This document shows positions 2,949 through 21,372 of a DNA stretch of 39,942 bases, piece by piece. The number at the start of each line of letters is the position of its first letter. The stretch's first letter is position 1. The notes beneath the pieces were generated by a model. The model was not told the origin of the DNA and made no database searches. It saw only the letters and a program-made list of their open reading frames with translations. The translations under genes and the position numbers were made by a program. The DNA comes from a virus. The stretch lies in the IMG/VR virus record IMGVR_UViG_3300042006_000033, positions 1 through 39,942 of that record; one strand, 5' to 3'.

Positions 2949-3182
2949 ATGGCAGACATTACCCAAATGACAGATGCACAGAAACTGAAGCTCGAAGTTT
3001 ACCGTCTGGTGATGAATGACTCAGCCGCTACCGAAAAGGCCATTGAGTTTATCGCAGGCAACGAGCTTAACTTTGAGCTGTTCAAAGATGCATATGCCAA
3101 GACAGCCAATGAGCCGACAGCCATGGCTAAGACAGAGAAAGCCGTGCGCGAGGCTAAAGAAGTATTAGACCTGTTTGCTTAA
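2949..3182 (+). CDS. Conserved small helical phage protein, function unknown
   Basis: A 77-residue, mostly helical protein beginning MADITQMTDAQKLKLEVYRL. It starts 2 bp after the HExxH gene stop and looks co-translated with it. I recall similar proteins of unknown function (DUF2560-like) in the same position in P22-type coliphages, but this is memory, not a search. It has no membrane segment or cysteines and a charged C-terminal helix (TEKAVREAKEVLDLFA). Confidence 0.6.
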   Translation: MADITQMTDAQKLKLEVYRLVMNDSAATEKAIEFIAGNELNFELFKDAYAKTANEPTAMAKTEKAVREAKEVLDLFA

Positions 3183-3200
3183 CCCATTAGGAGAATGCCA

Positions 3201-3809
3201 ATGATTACCCAACCATGGCCTACATACTCAGATGCCAGTGGCGCATTTGTTCGTGGCTTACCAATTAAGACCCTGACACAGGCTGTGGATGGTTCAGCAG
3301 TAGCTACCTTTGACGGACCATACCCAACCCAGTATCTGTCCGCACTGTTCATGTCCAAGTTCAAACCTGTAGTGACTGGTTATGTTTTCCAGAGCCAGTA
3401 CGGCGAACTGTTGTATATGAGCAAAACAGCATTTGAAGCTCAGTACACTGCGACAAGCACTCCGATCTCCTGGTCATCTGTGACTGGCAAGCCATCAACG
3501 TTCGCTCCAGTAATCGGTACAACCGCTACTACAGCAATGGCCGGTAACAAAGTACCTACATCAACAGATCGCGGTGGCGTACTGCAACAGGCAGCTATTA
3601 CAGCCATCACCGATTCATCCGGTGGCACTTCAGGAGGTAACACTGTACCAGCGGTGCCAGCAGCTACAGCGGCAACCACTGACACATCAGCCGCATCCCT
3701 GGCGTCGACAAACGCATCAATCACTGCACTGAAAAACGACATTGCAACTCTGTCAGCCAAGTACAACGCATTACTGGCTGCAGTGAAAGCATCAGGCGTA
3801 ACAGCGTAA
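3201..3809 (+). CDS. Putative virion decoration / head-fibre-like protein
   Basis: Starting at 3201 (AGGAG at 3189-3193, better spaced than for the ATG at 3195), the product is 202 aa. It has an N-terminal beta-rich domain (about 1-85, PYPTQYLSALFMSKFKPVVT), a Gly/Thr/Ser/Ala linker (about 95-155) and a C-terminal heptad helix (ITALKNDIATLSAKYNALLA). A globular base, flexible linker and trimerising coiled coil resemble fibrous capsid-decoration proteins. The location just ahead of terminase supports a structural role. The identity is inferred from architecture only. Confidence 0.5.
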   Translation: MITQPWPTYSDASGAFVRGLPIKTLTQAVDGSAVATFDGPYPTQYLSALFMSKFKPVVTGYVFQSQYGELLYMSKTAFEAQYTATSTPISWSSVTGKPSTFAPVIGTTATTAMAGNKVPTSTDRGGVLQQAAITAITDSSGGTSGGNTVPAVPAATAATTDTSAASLASTNASITALKNDIATLSAKYNALLAAVKASGVTA

Positions 3810-3839
3810 CCATTACAAAGCTCATCTTCTGGTGGGCTT

Positions 3840-3930
3840 GATAATGAGTGCTCTTCTGGGCCAAAGGCCAAGCGCCACCTGAAAAGGAAAAGGGGTGCGA
3901 TAAGCCGCATCAGGAAGTGTGCTCATTATC
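3840..3930 (+). ncRNA. Compact folded RNA before terminase genes
   Basis: GATAATGAG (3840-3848) pairs perfectly with CTCATTATC (3922-3930), and the stem continues inward for about three more pairs with two wobbles. The enclosed part has GGCC-AAA-GGCC (3859-3869) and a stem 3873-3880/3893-3899 with one bulged C and a purine-rich loop. It is followed within 3 bp by an intrinsic terminator. It may be the 3' structured end of the upstream late RNA or a separate small RNA. No ORF with a ribosome binding site starts here. Confidence 0.45.
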
Positions 3931-3933
3931 TAT

Positions 3934-3960
3934 AAGGCTGCCGAAAGGTGGCCTTTTTTT
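3934..3960 (+). terminator. Intrinsic terminator before terminase small subunit
   Basis: AAGGCTGCC-GAAA-GGTGGCCTT forms a 9 bp stem (two wobbles) capped by a GAAA tetraloop and followed by T7. Q-modified polymerase would be expected to read through into the head genes, as it does at tR'. Confidence 0.8.
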
Positions 3961-3982
3961 ATTGAATAACCGGGAATTAAGC

Positions 3983-4438
3983 ATGGCGACTGAATCAAAA
4001 GTCGGTCGCCCCACGGCCTACAAGGAAGAGTATGCCGAGCAAGCCAGAAAACTTTGCTTGTTGGGGCATACCGACGCTGAAATGGCGAACTTCTTCGAGG
4101 TAAGTGAGCAAACCATTAATGCATGGAAGCACGCACACCCAGAATTTCTTGAGTCCATAAAAAAGGGTAAAGAGGTGGCGGACGGTAATGTGGCAGATCG
4201 CCTGTACCAAAGAGCCATGGGATATGTAGCCCCAGACATCGACATCAGAGTTATTGAAAATCAGATTGTCGAAACACCACTTGAAAAGCATTACCCGCCA
4301 GATACTACAGCCGCAATATTTTGGCTCAAGAACCGCCAGAAGGATAAGTGGCGTGACAAGCAGGAAGTAGAGCATACCGGAGAGGTCAGCCTGATTCAGC
4401 GCATTCAGGAGGCTAGGAAACGCGCAAGAGGTGAGTAA
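3983..4438 (+). CDS. terS: Terminase small subunit
   Basis: DNA-recognition subunit of the headful packaging motor; it selects the pac site and feeds DNA to the large subunit. The start at 3983 gives 151 aa. An earlier in-frame ATG at 3848 would run through the RNA element and terminator, so I reject it. Residues about 25-55 form a helix-turn-helix (HTDAEMANFFEVSEQTINAW) typical of these proteins. A C-terminal helical and basic tail (EARKRARGE) would contact the large subunit. It overlaps terL by one base (TAATG). Unlike the downstream head genes it does not look like P22 gp3. Confidence 0.85.
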   Translation: MATESKVGRPTAYKEEYAEQARKLCLLGHTDAEMANFFEVSEQTINAWKHAHPEFLESIKKGKEVADGNVADRLYQRAMGYVAPDIDIRVIENQIVETPLEKHYPPDTTAAIFWLKNRQKDKWRDKQEVEHTGEVSLIQRIQEARKRARGE

Positions 4439-5898
4439 TGTCATCAGAATATGAGGCAATGCTTGCCGACGACATGGGTCGTTTCTTTTACGATCCCCTC
4501 GGGTTTGTGATGTATGCATTCGAGTGGGATGTAGGTGAGCTTGATGGATTTGATGGCCCAGATGAATGGCAGAAAGAGTTTCTAACCGATTGGGCAGAAG
4601 CTATCCGCACCAATAACTTTGATGGCGTTAAACCTGTTGAAGCTTACCGATGTTCAACCAGTTCTGGTCATGGTATCGGCAAGAGCGCATTAACAGCCTG
4701 GATTATCCTCTACATCCTCAGCACCAGGCCATTCTGCAAAGGAGTGGTAACGGCTAACACCTCAGAGCAGCTCCGTACAAAAACATGGGGTGAGCTAGGG
4801 AAATGGAAAAAGCGCTGCATAACTGGTCACTGGTTTGAGTACAACAACGGCAAAGGCAACATGAACATCTACCACGTAGATCACATGGAGTCATGGCGTT
4901 GTGATGGGCAGACATGCCGTGAAGAGAATAGTGAATCATTCGCTGGTCTTCATGCGGCAAATTCCAGTCCTTTCTACATCTTCGATGAGGCATCAGCCGT
5001 ACCTGACAAGATTTGGGAGGTTGCTGAAGGTGGACTGACAGATGGTGAGCCATTCTGGTTTGCTTTCGGCAACCCTACTCGTAACACAGGTAGATTCAGA
5101 GAGTGCTTCCGTAAGTTCAAACATCGTTGGCGTAGGCGGCAGATAGACAGTCGCAATGCCAAGATGACCAACAAAGAGCTTATTGAAGAATGGCGTAACG
5201 ACTACGGAGAAGACAGCGATTTCTTCAAGGTTCGCGTCAGAGGACTATTCCCATCCGCTTCAGACCTTCAATTCATACCACAAAGCTATGCCGATGCAGG
5301 CATGTCGAGACATCTGGAGTTTAGTCAGTATGGTTATGCGCCGAAGATTATCGGAGTAGACCCTGCATATTCTGGTAGCGATGAGGCGTGTATTTATCTT
5401 CGCCAGGGACTTTATTCAAAACTCCTGGGTTCATACCCCAAAACAGATGATGACGTTAAGTTCGCCCAGGTGGTTGCAGCCATAGAAGATGAGCATAAAG
5501 CAGATGCTGTATTCATTGACTTCGGGTACGGCACCGGCATTCATTCTGTAGGTAAATCATGGGGCAGAAAGTGGCAGTTAGTTAGCTTTGCTGGAGAATC
5601 AAAAGACCCTGCAATGCTCAATAAGCGCGGCGAGATGTGGAACTCAATGAAGTCCTGGCTCAATGAGGGAGGAAGCATTGATGACCAGCAAACAGCCGAT
5701 GAGATTGTTGCTCCAGAGTACAAAGTTAAGCTAGATGGCAAGATCGTCCTGGAGTCCAAAGAGGACATGAAGCGACGAGGTGTTCCATCACCAAACCGCG
5801 CTGACGCACTAGCACTTACCTTCGCCTTCCCGGTAATCAAAAACAAACCAACCAAAGCAGCACCGGCCCCAATTAAACCAGTCGCACGGAGAAGATAA
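4438..5898 (+). CDS. terL: Terminase large subunit
   Basis: ATPase and nuclease that pumps DNA into the prohead and cuts after a headful. The Walker A loop is SGHGIGKS (residues 76-83) and Walker B is YIFDEAS (Asp/Glu at about 183-184). The C-terminal RNase H-like nuclease starts with [10 protein letters not shown] (Asp at about 308), continues with [10 protein letters not shown], and ends near [17 protein letters not shown]. The length of 486 aa is normal. It begins and ends with TAATG overlaps, so it is translationally coupled to terS and portal. Confidence 0.93.
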
Positions 5899-15701: not shown

Positions 15702-17572
15702 TGGCTAAGGCATGGAAAGACGTTATTGCCTCTCAGCAGTATCAGGCACTGGCACCAGAGCAGAAAGCACAGGCGCAGGAGCAGTATTTTAATGAAGTGG
15801 TTGCTCCGCAGGCGGGTGATAGCGCAGAGCAGGCAAAACAGGCTTTCTATGCTGCATATCCAGTTCCGTCAGCAGAGCCTCAGCAACAAGTGCAGCAACC
15901 ACAGGATGAAGCGCAGCAACAGCAGGGCGGATTCATATCTGACCTTGGGAATGCTGCTGAGCAAGCAGGTCGAGGACTGATAAACATTCCATTTGATGCA
16001 TTGCAAGGCGGCGCAAGTCTGATTAACGCAATCAGTCAGGGGTTAGGCGGGCCAAAGGTCCTGGATGATGTTTATCGTCCAGTAGACAGGCCTACGGACC
16101 CTTATGCTCAAGTTGGTGAGTCAGTTGGTAACTATCTTACTCCCGGACTTGGCGTCGCTGGAAATATGATTGCTGGGTCTATTTCTGATGCAACCAATCA
16201 ACAGGGAGACTTCGCCACAAACGTAGCTAAAAATGCAGCAATTAACCTTGGGGCTCAAGGTGCATTGTCTGCTGTAGCGAAGGGTGTTGGTCGGGGAATT
16301 ACAGCTGTTAAAGGTACAATTGCACCTGAAGCAGCTCAGACTATAGCGAATGCGGAATCCTTGGGCATAACACCAATGACTTCTGACATGATTAAGCCAG
16401 GGAATGCATTCACAAAAGGTCTTGTGCAGGGAGGCGAGGGTGCGTTGTTAGGTTCAGGGGCGCAAAGAGAGACCCAGCAGGCAGCAAGAAGCAAGGCTGT
16501 GTCAAACTATCTTGATAAATTCGGAGAGTACAACCCTGATGATGTGGTCAAATCGCTAACAAATAATCTAAAAGGGCGCAGGGATATTGCTGGAAAGGCA
16601 CTGGAAGGCATCACGCAAAAGATGGGCACAACACCTGTAGAAACCTCCAATGCAGTTACCGCGATTGATGACAGTCTGGCTAAGCTTAATCGCCTTGGTA
16701 CATCAGCCGATAAAAACCTAGTGTCTACGCTGGAAAACTTAAAGTCTGAGCTATCAAGCCCAAATATTGACTTCGACCTGTTAAAGCAGCACAGGACAGC
16801 GTTCCGCTCAAATGTACAGGGTGATGCAATGGTATTTCCTGACCATGCAAAGGCGATCACAAACCGCATTGAAAATGCGATGACGAGAGACCTGCGTGGA
16901 GCGGTCGGGAAAAGTCTGGGCCCACAAGAGGCGGCTAACTACATCAAGGCTAATTCTGATTACTCGAATATCTACAACAAAGTTCTGAACAAGAAGATCG
17001 CCAACAATCTTAATAAGGCAACAAACGAGGCGACACCAGAGCTCATCAATAGCGTCGTGTATAGCCGCAATGCTTCGGATATCAAACGAATCTGGCCAGC
17101 GCTGGATGAGAAAGGAAAGGATGCTATGAGGGCGGCGTACATCAGCCGCATATCTGAGAAAACTGGCGGGTCACCTGCAAAATTCCTTACTGAAGTGAAC
17201 AAACTAAAGCGTCAAGCTGGAGGTGAAATTTACAGCACCATATTCAGCGGGAAACACATGAAGGAACTTGACGCACTGCATGAAGTTCTCAGGGAAACCG
17301 CTCGCGCAGATTCAGCTAACGTTGTAACTCAAACAGGGCAAGCTCTAGCTAATCCTCTCAGGCTTGGTGCTGGGGTTGCTTCGGGAGGGACATCGCTAGC
17401 ATCAGAGGCAGGTTATGGGCTGGCAATGAGAGTCTATGAATCAAAGCCAGTGAGAAATGCACTGCTAAGGCTCGCCAATACTAAGCCAGGAACTCCATCA
17501 TATGAAAATGCGCTGAACAATGCAGCCAATCTTGTCAGGCCATTTATAGCATCTCAGGCTGCGCGAGAGTAA
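15701..17572 (+). CDS. 16: Injection protein, P22 gp16 type
   Basis: The largest ejected protein, needed early in infection for DNA translocation through the inner membrane in P22. 623 aa against 609. The N-terminus is [20 protein letters not shown], followed by a Gln-rich linker (about 55-75), glycine-rich amphipathic segments ([19 protein letters not shown]) and a long helical C-terminal half. The last 19 nt overlap the 3' end of the opposing small membrane gene. Confidence 0.92.
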
Positions 17573-17772
17573 GAGCTGATGATGGCATCTGTGGATTTCA
17601 ATTTAGCAATTTCAATTTTCATGTAAAAGATATCATCCTGAAGGTCAGAAATTGTAATTTCATGTGCATCACATTTTCTACGCATTCCTTCCATAAGTGT
17701 TCCAATTGTCCCTATAGCAATTATTACTGCAACAATAAAGATGATGAAACCGATATAAACGAGAGTAATCAT
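17554..17772 (-). CDS. Small membrane protein, probable moron
   Basis: 72 aa. Residues 4-25 are one hydrophobic helix ([21 protein letters not shown]), followed by a cytoplasmic tail with heptad character ([18 protein letters not shown]). AGGAG lies 8 nt before the ATG and an extended -10 lies 36 nt upstream. The gene thus looks independently transcribed, against the late operon, from a prophage. It sits between injection genes and tailspike, a place where P22-type phages carry exclusion genes such as sieA. The sequence does not resemble SieA. Superinfection exclusion is a reasonable guess only. Confidence 0.7.
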
Positions 17773-19923: not shown

Positions 19924-19962
19924 TGTGATATCCTCATGAACAAGGATGTTTTTGAGGTGCTT

Positions 19963-21339
19963 ATGTCAATTTCAAGAAGAAAATTTATTAAATTAGCCGC
20001 AGCTATCGGCGCGCTGTCAGGGTCAGGTCTTCTTTTTGCGCATTACGTGCCTGGAAGGAAGAACCGCGTATTCATAATCTATGGGCAGTCTAATTCCACT
20101 GGTAGCGTTGACTATTCGCAAACGTGGAGAACGCCAAGCCCATGGGATGTTTATGCGGATTCTTACGAAGGTGAGAGAGACGGCAGTAAATTCATTACAG
20201 TAAACAGATCGGAAGCATTAACTTTATCTCCAGATGGGTCCAGTTTGTCAAGTTTAGGTGAGATGGCTTATGGTGTAGATGCTGGAGAAGGTCCAGTTTA
20301 TGGCATTGCCTCGCATCTATCGAAGGCATTCCCAAAAGACAATTTAATTATTTTTGGGCATGGCAGAGGATCTCAATATATTGAGCAACTTATCAAGCCA
20401 ACCGAGGGATTAATTCTCAATGGCGATAAATACAATAAACCTCTATCAAAAGAATCTTCTGACTATAATGTAGTTTCAGGCAATAAACCATTGCTTTATT
20501 ATCGTGAGCCAAAATTTCGTTACCCTTATCTGAATGGCATGTGGATGCTAAAAAAGATAAAAGAGATTACTAAAAGCGATATTCAAGTTGATGGCATCTT
20601 CTGGATTCAAGGTGAAAATGATGCTATAGCACCTAAAGGTTATGGAGAAAAGCTATTATCTTTCAGAGATGAGTACCTCAAAGACATAATGGCAATAACT
20701 GGACAGGGAAAAGCACCAGAGTTCGTCTTTGAGCAAAGTAACTATTGCTGGCATGGATTTAAAACAGAAGTCAAGAGAATAAACTCTCACTTTGGCCTTA
20801 ACGTAGAGCAAATGCTTGCGCATCAGGAGGCTAAAAGCTCAGGGATTAACATGTATATCTCTGGCCCTCGCTACCACTTGACCAATGAGATACATATGTA
20901 CCCTCATGTCCAGCGTGCACATGGCGAAAAAATGGCTCAAGCATTTTTAACGAGCATTTATGGAGGGCGTCAATGGAGCCCCCTTTGCTACTCGTCACAT
21001 CACATTGATGATGGGAAGTTGATGATAAAATTCAATGTACCCGTAAAGCCGTTGCAGTTCAGAAAGACCCTTAATGGCATGTACACTTTCTCAAAAGATG
21101 GTTGTCCTATGGGCTTCCATTTTACGGGAAAGAAGTTGGAAAGCGACGATGTGGAAATTATATCATCAGATACAGTAATCATTAACACGCATGGTAAGCG
21201 CGGGGTTGTTAGCTACCTGAAGGAATCAAGGATAGGAGAGCTCTGTGACAGCGACGACTTCCCAAGTCATTTTAAGGATAGATATCACGCGGAAAACACT
21301 ATGGTGAACTATTGCCTTCCTTTTGAAATCATAATTTAA
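19963..21339 (+). CDS. Tat-signal SGNH/SASA-type carbohydrate esterase
   Basis: 458 aa from the ATG at 19963 (GAGG 5 nt upstream; the ATG at 19936 has no binding site). The N-terminus MSISRRKFIKLAAAIGALSG is a twin-arginine export signal, so the enzyme should act in the periplasm or outside. The body matches the sialate-O-acetylesterase-like SGNH superfamily: block I GQSNS with nucleophile Ser43, a mid-protein WIQGENDA (about 215-221) and a C-terminal HMYPHVQRAHG with the likely catalytic His at about 311. The usual Asp two residues before that His is Asn308 here. A beta-rich C-terminal domain follows. It lies 39 bp after the tailspike with no terminator between. Removal of O-acetyl groups from surface polysaccharide is the likely chemistry; the substrate is unknown. 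Confidence 0.8.
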   Translation: MSISRRKFIKLAAAIGALSGSGLLFAHYVPGRKNRVFIIYGQSNSTGSVDYSQTWRTPSPWDVYADSYEGERDGSKFITVNRSEALTLSPDGSSLSSLGEMAYGVDAGEGPVYGIASHLSKAFPKDNLIIFGHGRGSQYIEQLIKPTEGLILNGDKYNKPLSKESSDYNVVSGNKPLLYYREPKFRYPYLNGMWMLKKIKEITKSDIQVDGIFWIQGENDAIAPKGYGEKLLSFRDEYLKDIMAITGQGKAPEFVFEQSNYCWHGFKTEVKRINSHFGLNVEQMLAHQEAKSSGINMYISGPRYHLTNEIHMYPHVQRAHGEKMAQAFLTSIYGGRQWSPLCYSSHHIDDGKLMIKFNVPVKPLQFRKTLNGMYTFSKDGCPMGFHFTGKKLESDDVEIISSDTVIINTHGKRGVVSYLKESRIGELCDSDDFPSHFKDRYHAENTMVNYCLPFEIII

Positions 21340-21353
21340 GCGATAAAAGTTCT

Positions 21354-21372
21354 AGCCCACTCAAGTGGGCTT
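21354..21372. terminator. Bidirectional terminator between esterase and mnt
   Basis: Perfect palindrome AGCCCACT-CA-AGTGGGCT between converging genes. It has TTCTTCT on the plus side and AGAACTTTTATC on the minus side. The mnt stop codon lies within it. Confidence 0.7.

Follow-up and report, generated by a model that had tools for sequence, protein, structure and literature searches.

A 39,942-base stretch of viral DNA (hereafter the window) represents a P22-like temperate phage that carries, next to its tailspike gene, a gene for a SASA/SGNH esterase with a twin-arginine translocation (Tat) signal. We estimate at roughly 60% the probability that this protein is a deacetylase, exported by Tat and probably made late in infection, which takes O-acetyl groups off the host O-antigen bound by the spike and so limits re-adsorption or superinfection. 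This reading draws on the domain homology and export signal of the protein, purifying selection on its gene, its pairing with one type of spike, its location in a slot held by gtrABC in related phages, and the association of that spike with O93 strains of E. coli.

Gene layout and export signal

The genes of the window are arranged in the order packaging, head, tail-needle and ejection genes, tailspike, esterase, Arc-like and antirepressor-like genes, and integrase. The tailspike matches the profiles Head_binding (PF09008; E = 5e-62) and Beta_helix (PF13229). Its receptor-binding part recurs, with the same or a different adaptor, in a siphovirus-like contig (L001), an E. coli prophage (L039) and the Enterobacter phage fGh-Ecl02. 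The esterase reading frame proposed in the sequence-only reading, together with its SASA-like blocks, was confirmed (Table 1). We place its start at ATG 19963, which is preceded by the conserved SD sequence GAGGTG; the in-frame ATG further upstream, at position 19936, is replaced by ATT in the two close relatives and is thus not the start.

The spike and esterase genes are co-directional and separated by 39 nt. A terminator scan found no terminator-like site between them, as the sequence-only reading had stated, and a consensus scan found no promoter-like site for the esterase above chance; together these features favour late co-expression. The hairpin directly 3' of the esterase was not called by the terminator scan. 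In folding predictions, a conserved CCTC at 19932-19935 is able to pair with the GAGG of the esterase SD sequence, and the pairing showed no covariation. It might conceivably couple translation of the esterase to that of the spike, being opened by ribosomes that finish the spike. Between the gene-16-like gene and the spike, the minus strand encodes a 72-aa ORF (17554-17772) with one strong N-terminal transmembrane stretch, possibly an accessory membrane gene; the E. coli sister prophages carry a minus-strand 'YobH family protein' between the ejection genes and the spike.

Table 1. Coordinates of the tailspike, the esterase and associated features in the window.
Feature	Position	Strand	Remarks
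Tailspike gene, 684 aa	17869..19923	+	P22-type head-binding domain (aa 1-113) and beta-helix receptor-binding part
Spike-esterase gap, 39 nt	19924..19962	+	SD GAGGTG at 19954-19959, kept in relatives
Tat-signal SASA/SGNH esterase gene, 458 aa	19963..21339	+	Appears to descend from a tail-fibre esterase domain
Tat signal sequence, aa 1-28	19963..20046	+	Twin arginine R5-R6 at 19975-19980; TIGR01409
Block I GQS	20083..20091	+	Predicted nucleophile Ser43 (20089-20091), oxyanion Gln42; from alignments; SASA hallmark (PMC9487903)
Block III WIQGEN, aa 214-219	20602..20619	+	From alignments; QGE is a SASA hallmark
Block V NEIH, aa 308-311	20884..20895	+	Predicted catalytic His311; Asn308 where relatives carry Asp
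C-terminal beta-rich domain, about aa 336-458	20968..21336	+	Common to tail-fibre esterases; phrog_4201 match extends to aa 456; from alignment
Hairpin AGCCCAC-TCAA-GTGGGCT, directly 3' of esterase	21354..21371		Possible terminator, poor T tract; fold z -3.1

The N-terminus of the esterase (SRRKFIKLAAAIGALSGSGLLFA) contains an S-R-R-x-F-L-K-like motif, SRRKFIK, followed by a hydrophobic stretch. The twin-arginine signal noticed in the sequence-only reading is present: this segment (MSISRRKFIKLAAAIGALSGSGLLFA) scored 20.5 bits against the NCBI Tat model TIGR01409 (cut-off 16.7), which was matched in all three homologues, and was sub-threshold against the Pfam Tat model PF10518 (15.1 versus a cut-off of 22.7). 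The sole changes inside the motif among the homologues are K7 to N and I to V, as in SRRNFVK of the E. coli protein. An AxA signal peptidase motif is absent from the esterase, and the homologues have LFA or LLA before residue 27. Cleavage may occur at LFA/H, or the uncleaved N-terminus may serve as an anchor.

Esterase domain and active site

Profile searches placed the protein in the SASA family (PF03629; 35.8 bits, cut-off 24.8; E = 8e-9) and matched it to the 'tail fiber protein' family phrog_4201 (E = 3e-29) across both the esterase domain and the C-terminal part. The latter match covers only positions 394-671 of the 676-position profile: the N-terminal virion-attachment region is absent, and the esterase domain begins immediately after the signal sequence. 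In relatives such as those of phages VvAW1 and HD01, this domain forms the end of a long tail protein, and every homologue that could be placed with confidence is a virion tail fibre. A further esterase-domain ORF (L022:3479-5263) begins about 30 aa before GQS (MVTRRDCFRSSG...) with no hydrophobic stretch; this is possibly another free-standing or split version.

Multiple sequence alignments showed that G41-Q42-S43 and Q216-G217-E218 are nearly invariant among 15 relatives. SASA members are recognised by a Gln adjoining the nucleophilic Ser of Block I and by QGE in Block III (PMC9487903), and on these alignments the esterase is a regular member of the family. Block V differs. The 'DxxH' motif reads N308-E309-I310-H311: His311 is kept, and each of the three Tat homologues carries Asn at the Asp position, where nearly all tail-fibre relatives have Asp and a few have Gly. 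The sequence-only reading depended on a conserved active site, which held for the Ser, Gln, Glu and His and failed for the Block V Asp. Tail-fibre esterases with Gly were found in L030, L031 and L032 (ORF 2990-4807), indicating that the position varies within the family. EcNanS is also without the Block V Asp (PMC9487903), so the change to Asn does not exclude SASA membership. Furthermore, CE20 esterases can employ either Asp or Asn, with a water molecule as intermediary (PMC12313940), and Glu309, adjoining Asn308, is conserved as well. On these precedents, the esterase is likely, though not certain, to be enzymatically active.

Comparison of the window with L001 gave a dN/dS of 0.14 for the esterase, i.e., purifying selection. 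Structure prediction yielded a model of moderate confidence (mean pLDDT 63; pTM 0.71) in which the Block V loop is of low confidence. The best fold matches to this model were a cyanophage tailspike (9vyh; Z = 24.7 over 331 residues) and the carbohydrate acetylesterase XAC1771 (Z = 21.7), with further matches to CE20 enzymes, SIAE and NanS (Z = 13.8).

Pairing with one spike type and association with E. coli O93

Close homologues of the esterase were found in just two further settings. In the siphovirus-like contig L001, the tail genes are lambda-like, with NlpC-type and host-specificity-type members; they are followed by a spike whose adaptor is Tail_spike_N, by an esterase 88% identical to that of the window, and by gtrABC. 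The other setting is one P22-like prophage that E. coli PSJ-36 and LR-25 carry beside dacD (L039 and L040); it has an antirepressor, a spike and then an esterase with 80% identity (WP_204088878.1), named in databases only as a 'twin-arginine translocation signal domain-containing protein'. This E. coli protein was revealed only by a distant search of E. coli, a near-DNA search of phages and E. coli genomes having given no match for the esterase. Searches for the esterase in plasmids and scans of genome contigs with esterase and spike queries returned nothing, and a viral scan repeated with the three Tat homologues recovered L001 and no further virus.

The receptor-binding part of the spike is of the same type in the window, L001 and the E. 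coli prophage (78-82% identical), whereas the adaptor of L001 is unrelated; the esterase is thus paired with both P22 Head_binding and Tail_spike_N adaptors. DNA homology between the window and L001 runs from about 18240, inside the spike, to the stop codon of the esterase. Synonymous divergence was discordant between the two genes. For the window and L001, dS is 0.39 for the esterase and saturated for the spike beta-helix; for L001 and the E. coli prophage, it is 0.40 for the beta-helix and saturated for the esterase. These values indicate that spike and esterase have been reshuffled yet are still paired, and we accordingly dropped the idea that the two move as one undisturbed block.

The spike also occurs without this enzyme, in the lytic phage fGh-Ecl02, or with gtrABC, in the sister prophages, which shows that it works in the enzyme's absence. 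From this distribution, the esterase is an accessory of temperate phages with this spike and no requirement of the spike itself. We also considered a spike-esterase pairing in the virions of lytic phages and dropped it, given that no SASA domain was found among the genes adjoining the same or a related spike in fGh-Ecl02 and KKP 3715.

Where the window has the esterase, gtrABC in the opposite orientation comes after the spike of a P22-like metagenomic contig (L013; related spike) and of an argW sister prophage of E. coli YA-1 and ij001. Both kinds of prophage are present in strain PSJ-36, one at argW with gtrABC and one at dacD with the Tat esterase. The same neighbourhood has an acyltransferase and gtr-type genes in Salmonella phage BIS08P22. 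The presence of these genes at this place in relatives indicates that the esterase occupies a P22-like slot for receptor-modifying genes. In PSJ-36, which is an O93 strain, the prophage regions L045:1-16665 and L039:1-21377 share several identical structural proteins and have related spikes.

The receptor-binding part of the spike was present in five of 5426 complete E. coli genomes. All five are among the ten of those 5426 genomes that contain the O93 wzx-wzy-acyltransferase stretch. The probability of such complete overlap by chance is 6e-15 if genomes are treated as independent and 3e-6 if only two acquisitions are assumed, the latter being the safer figure because O93 genomes are few and partly clonal. 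The profile name phrog_8280 on the spike had suggested colanic acid, and wca genes are also present in the O93 strains. Colanic acid is widespread in E. coli, however, whereas the spike is confined to O93 strains, and we therefore disfavour it as the spike target.

According to NMR analysis, the O93 O-antigen contains a 3-substituted mannose that bears two acetyl groups, at O2 and O6, in roughly half of the units; in a further quarter it has only the O2 acetyl, and in the remaining quarter it is unacetylated. The O93 cluster encodes a maltose-acetyltransferase-like putative O-acetyltransferase (PMC10191223). We found the O93 cluster, including this putative O-acetyltransferase gene, in both strains that carry the esterase, and these lysogens are consequently predicted to make O-acetylated O-antigen. 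Genome association thus predicts the O-acetylated O93 O-antigen as the receptor of the spike in E. coli. By extrapolation, an O-acetylated O-antigen would also be the substrate in the window's own host.

Proposed function and relation to known systems

We propose that a polysaccharide O-acetylesterase arose from a tail-fibre esterase domain that would have lost its virion-attachment part and now bears a Tat signal. Judged from gene layout only, it would share one transcription unit with the tailspike and would most likely be made late in infection. The host Tat pathway would carry the folded enzyme to the periplasm. If, as the MAT-like family of the putative O-acetyltransferase suggests, a cytoplasmic enzyme adds the acetyl groups before the O-antigen is flipped, an eraser of the finished polymer would have to sit outside the cytoplasm, a location that the Tat signal could provide. 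There the esterase would strip O-acetyl groups after flipping and before surface display, at mannose O2 and O6 of O93 in the case of the E. coli relatives. Release at lysis needs no signal, so the Tat signal points to the envelope of the producing cell itself. The altered receptor would keep progeny off the producing cell and its debris, and would hinder superinfection by phages with the same spike. That a Tat-exported deacetylase strips the host's own O-antigen, as the sequence-only reading suggested, is now the best-supported interpretation, considering the pairing with this spike on three backbones, the gtrABC slot and the restriction of the spike to O93 in E. coli.

We favour a late receptor-erasing role. 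The main alternative shares its biochemistry: the same enzyme with the same substrate may be expressed in the lysogen as a seroconversion gene that keeps the O-antigen deacetylated and excludes superinfecting phages, in the manner of gtrABC or oac. This is possible, if rather unlikely. There are precedents, since acetylation by Sf6 blocks Sf6, epsilon15 lowers O-antigen acetylation, by a proposed inhibition (PMC9558356), and Kapi1 lysogens, whose O-antigen receptor is altered, are resistant to superinfection (PMC8787464); moreover, the esterase sits in the slot of the gtrABC genes of sister prophages. Unlike gtrABC, however, it follows the spike closely in the same direction, with no promoter-like site above chance. 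It is improbable that the SGNH domain is catalytically impaired or inactive and acts in the periplasm by binding acetylated O-antigen instead of cleaving it. The shared Asn in Block V would fit such a protein, but NanS is active without the Asp and CE20 enzymes use Asp or Asn through water (PMC9487903, PMC12313940), and the gene is under purifying selection with Ser43, Gln42, QGE and His311 conserved and Glu309 nearby.

The sequence-only reading had also offered that the enzyme acts with the spike in the particle, which we do not favour because the virion-attachment part is missing and a Tat signal is present. For the esterase to be a virion protein that joins the spike, the twin-arginine stretch would have to be coincidental. 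Although its confidently placed homologues are all virion tail fibres and its gene directly follows the spike, the Tat model is above cut-off, the motif is conserved, and the same esterase accompanies spikes with unrelated adaptors; we regard this explanation as very unlikely. Least probable of all is an accessory gene resembling NanS-p that promotes host use of O-acetylated sialic acids and is unconnected to the phage receptor. Phage-borne nanS-p genes do exist (PMC10462455) and belong to the SASA family, but the esterase is tightly linked to one spike type and to hosts with O-acetylated O-antigen, its C-terminal domain is of the tail-fibre type, and its fold match to NanS is weaker than those to tailspike and CE20 esterases.

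Among known systems, the SASA tail-fibre esterases (phrog_4201; Vibrio phage VvAW1, Acinetobacter phage HD01) are closest, sharing a homologous esterase and C-terminal domain with GQS and QGE. Deacetylation of surface polysaccharide is the expected reaction of both, although the tail-fibre enzymes belong to the virion, have an attachment part at the N-terminus and lack a signal, whereas the esterase of the window is free-standing with a Tat signal. The receptor-binding proteins of Klebsiella prophages commonly contain SGNH domains for which deacetylation is predicted (PMC13123978). The G7C tailspike gp63.1 deacetylates, from the virion, the host O-antigen used as receptor (PMC10743462). The esterase is predicted to target the same kind of group; gp63.1 acts from the particle at entry, while the esterase would act inside the envelope of the producing cell, and a PDB search gave no sequence match between the two. 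Sf6 Oac and P22 gtrABC share with the esterase the slot beside the tailspike and, as predicted here, the alteration of the O-antigen that the spike binds. They are membrane enzymes that add acetyl or glucose, in contrast to a soluble, Tat-exported enzyme, co-directional with the spike, that would remove acetyl. NanS and phage NanS-p have the SASA fold, and NanS likewise is without the Block V Asp, but they serve sialic acid metabolism, have other flanking domains, and have no reported linkage to a spike.

In a literature search of incomplete coverage, we came across neither an account of a phage deacetylase that is exported by Tat and absent from the virion nor a paper joining prophage, twin-arginine translocation and tailspike. 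The esterase would constitute a variant of phage receptor modification, an eraser rather than a writer, and exported rather than carried in the virion. We would give even odds to the fuller description of a non-virion 'receptor-destroying enzyme', i.e., a tail-fibre esterase turned into a Tat-exported periplasmic O-antigen deacetylase and inherited with the spike whose acetylated receptor it erases.

In the known routes, lysogens change the receptor by adding glucose or acetyl, or a particle-borne spike deacetylates it. If our reading is true, an eraser exported by the host and paired with the phage's own spike would be a third route, in which a group is removed through the host Tat pathway, and how progeny avoid sticking to their parent cell would become testable by a single gene deletion. 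The analysis also points to a concrete polysaccharide, the O93 O-antigen, in which mannose is acetylated, and to a candidate deacetylase that could be of use in serotyping and glycan research, as well as to a putative case of a phage using Tat.
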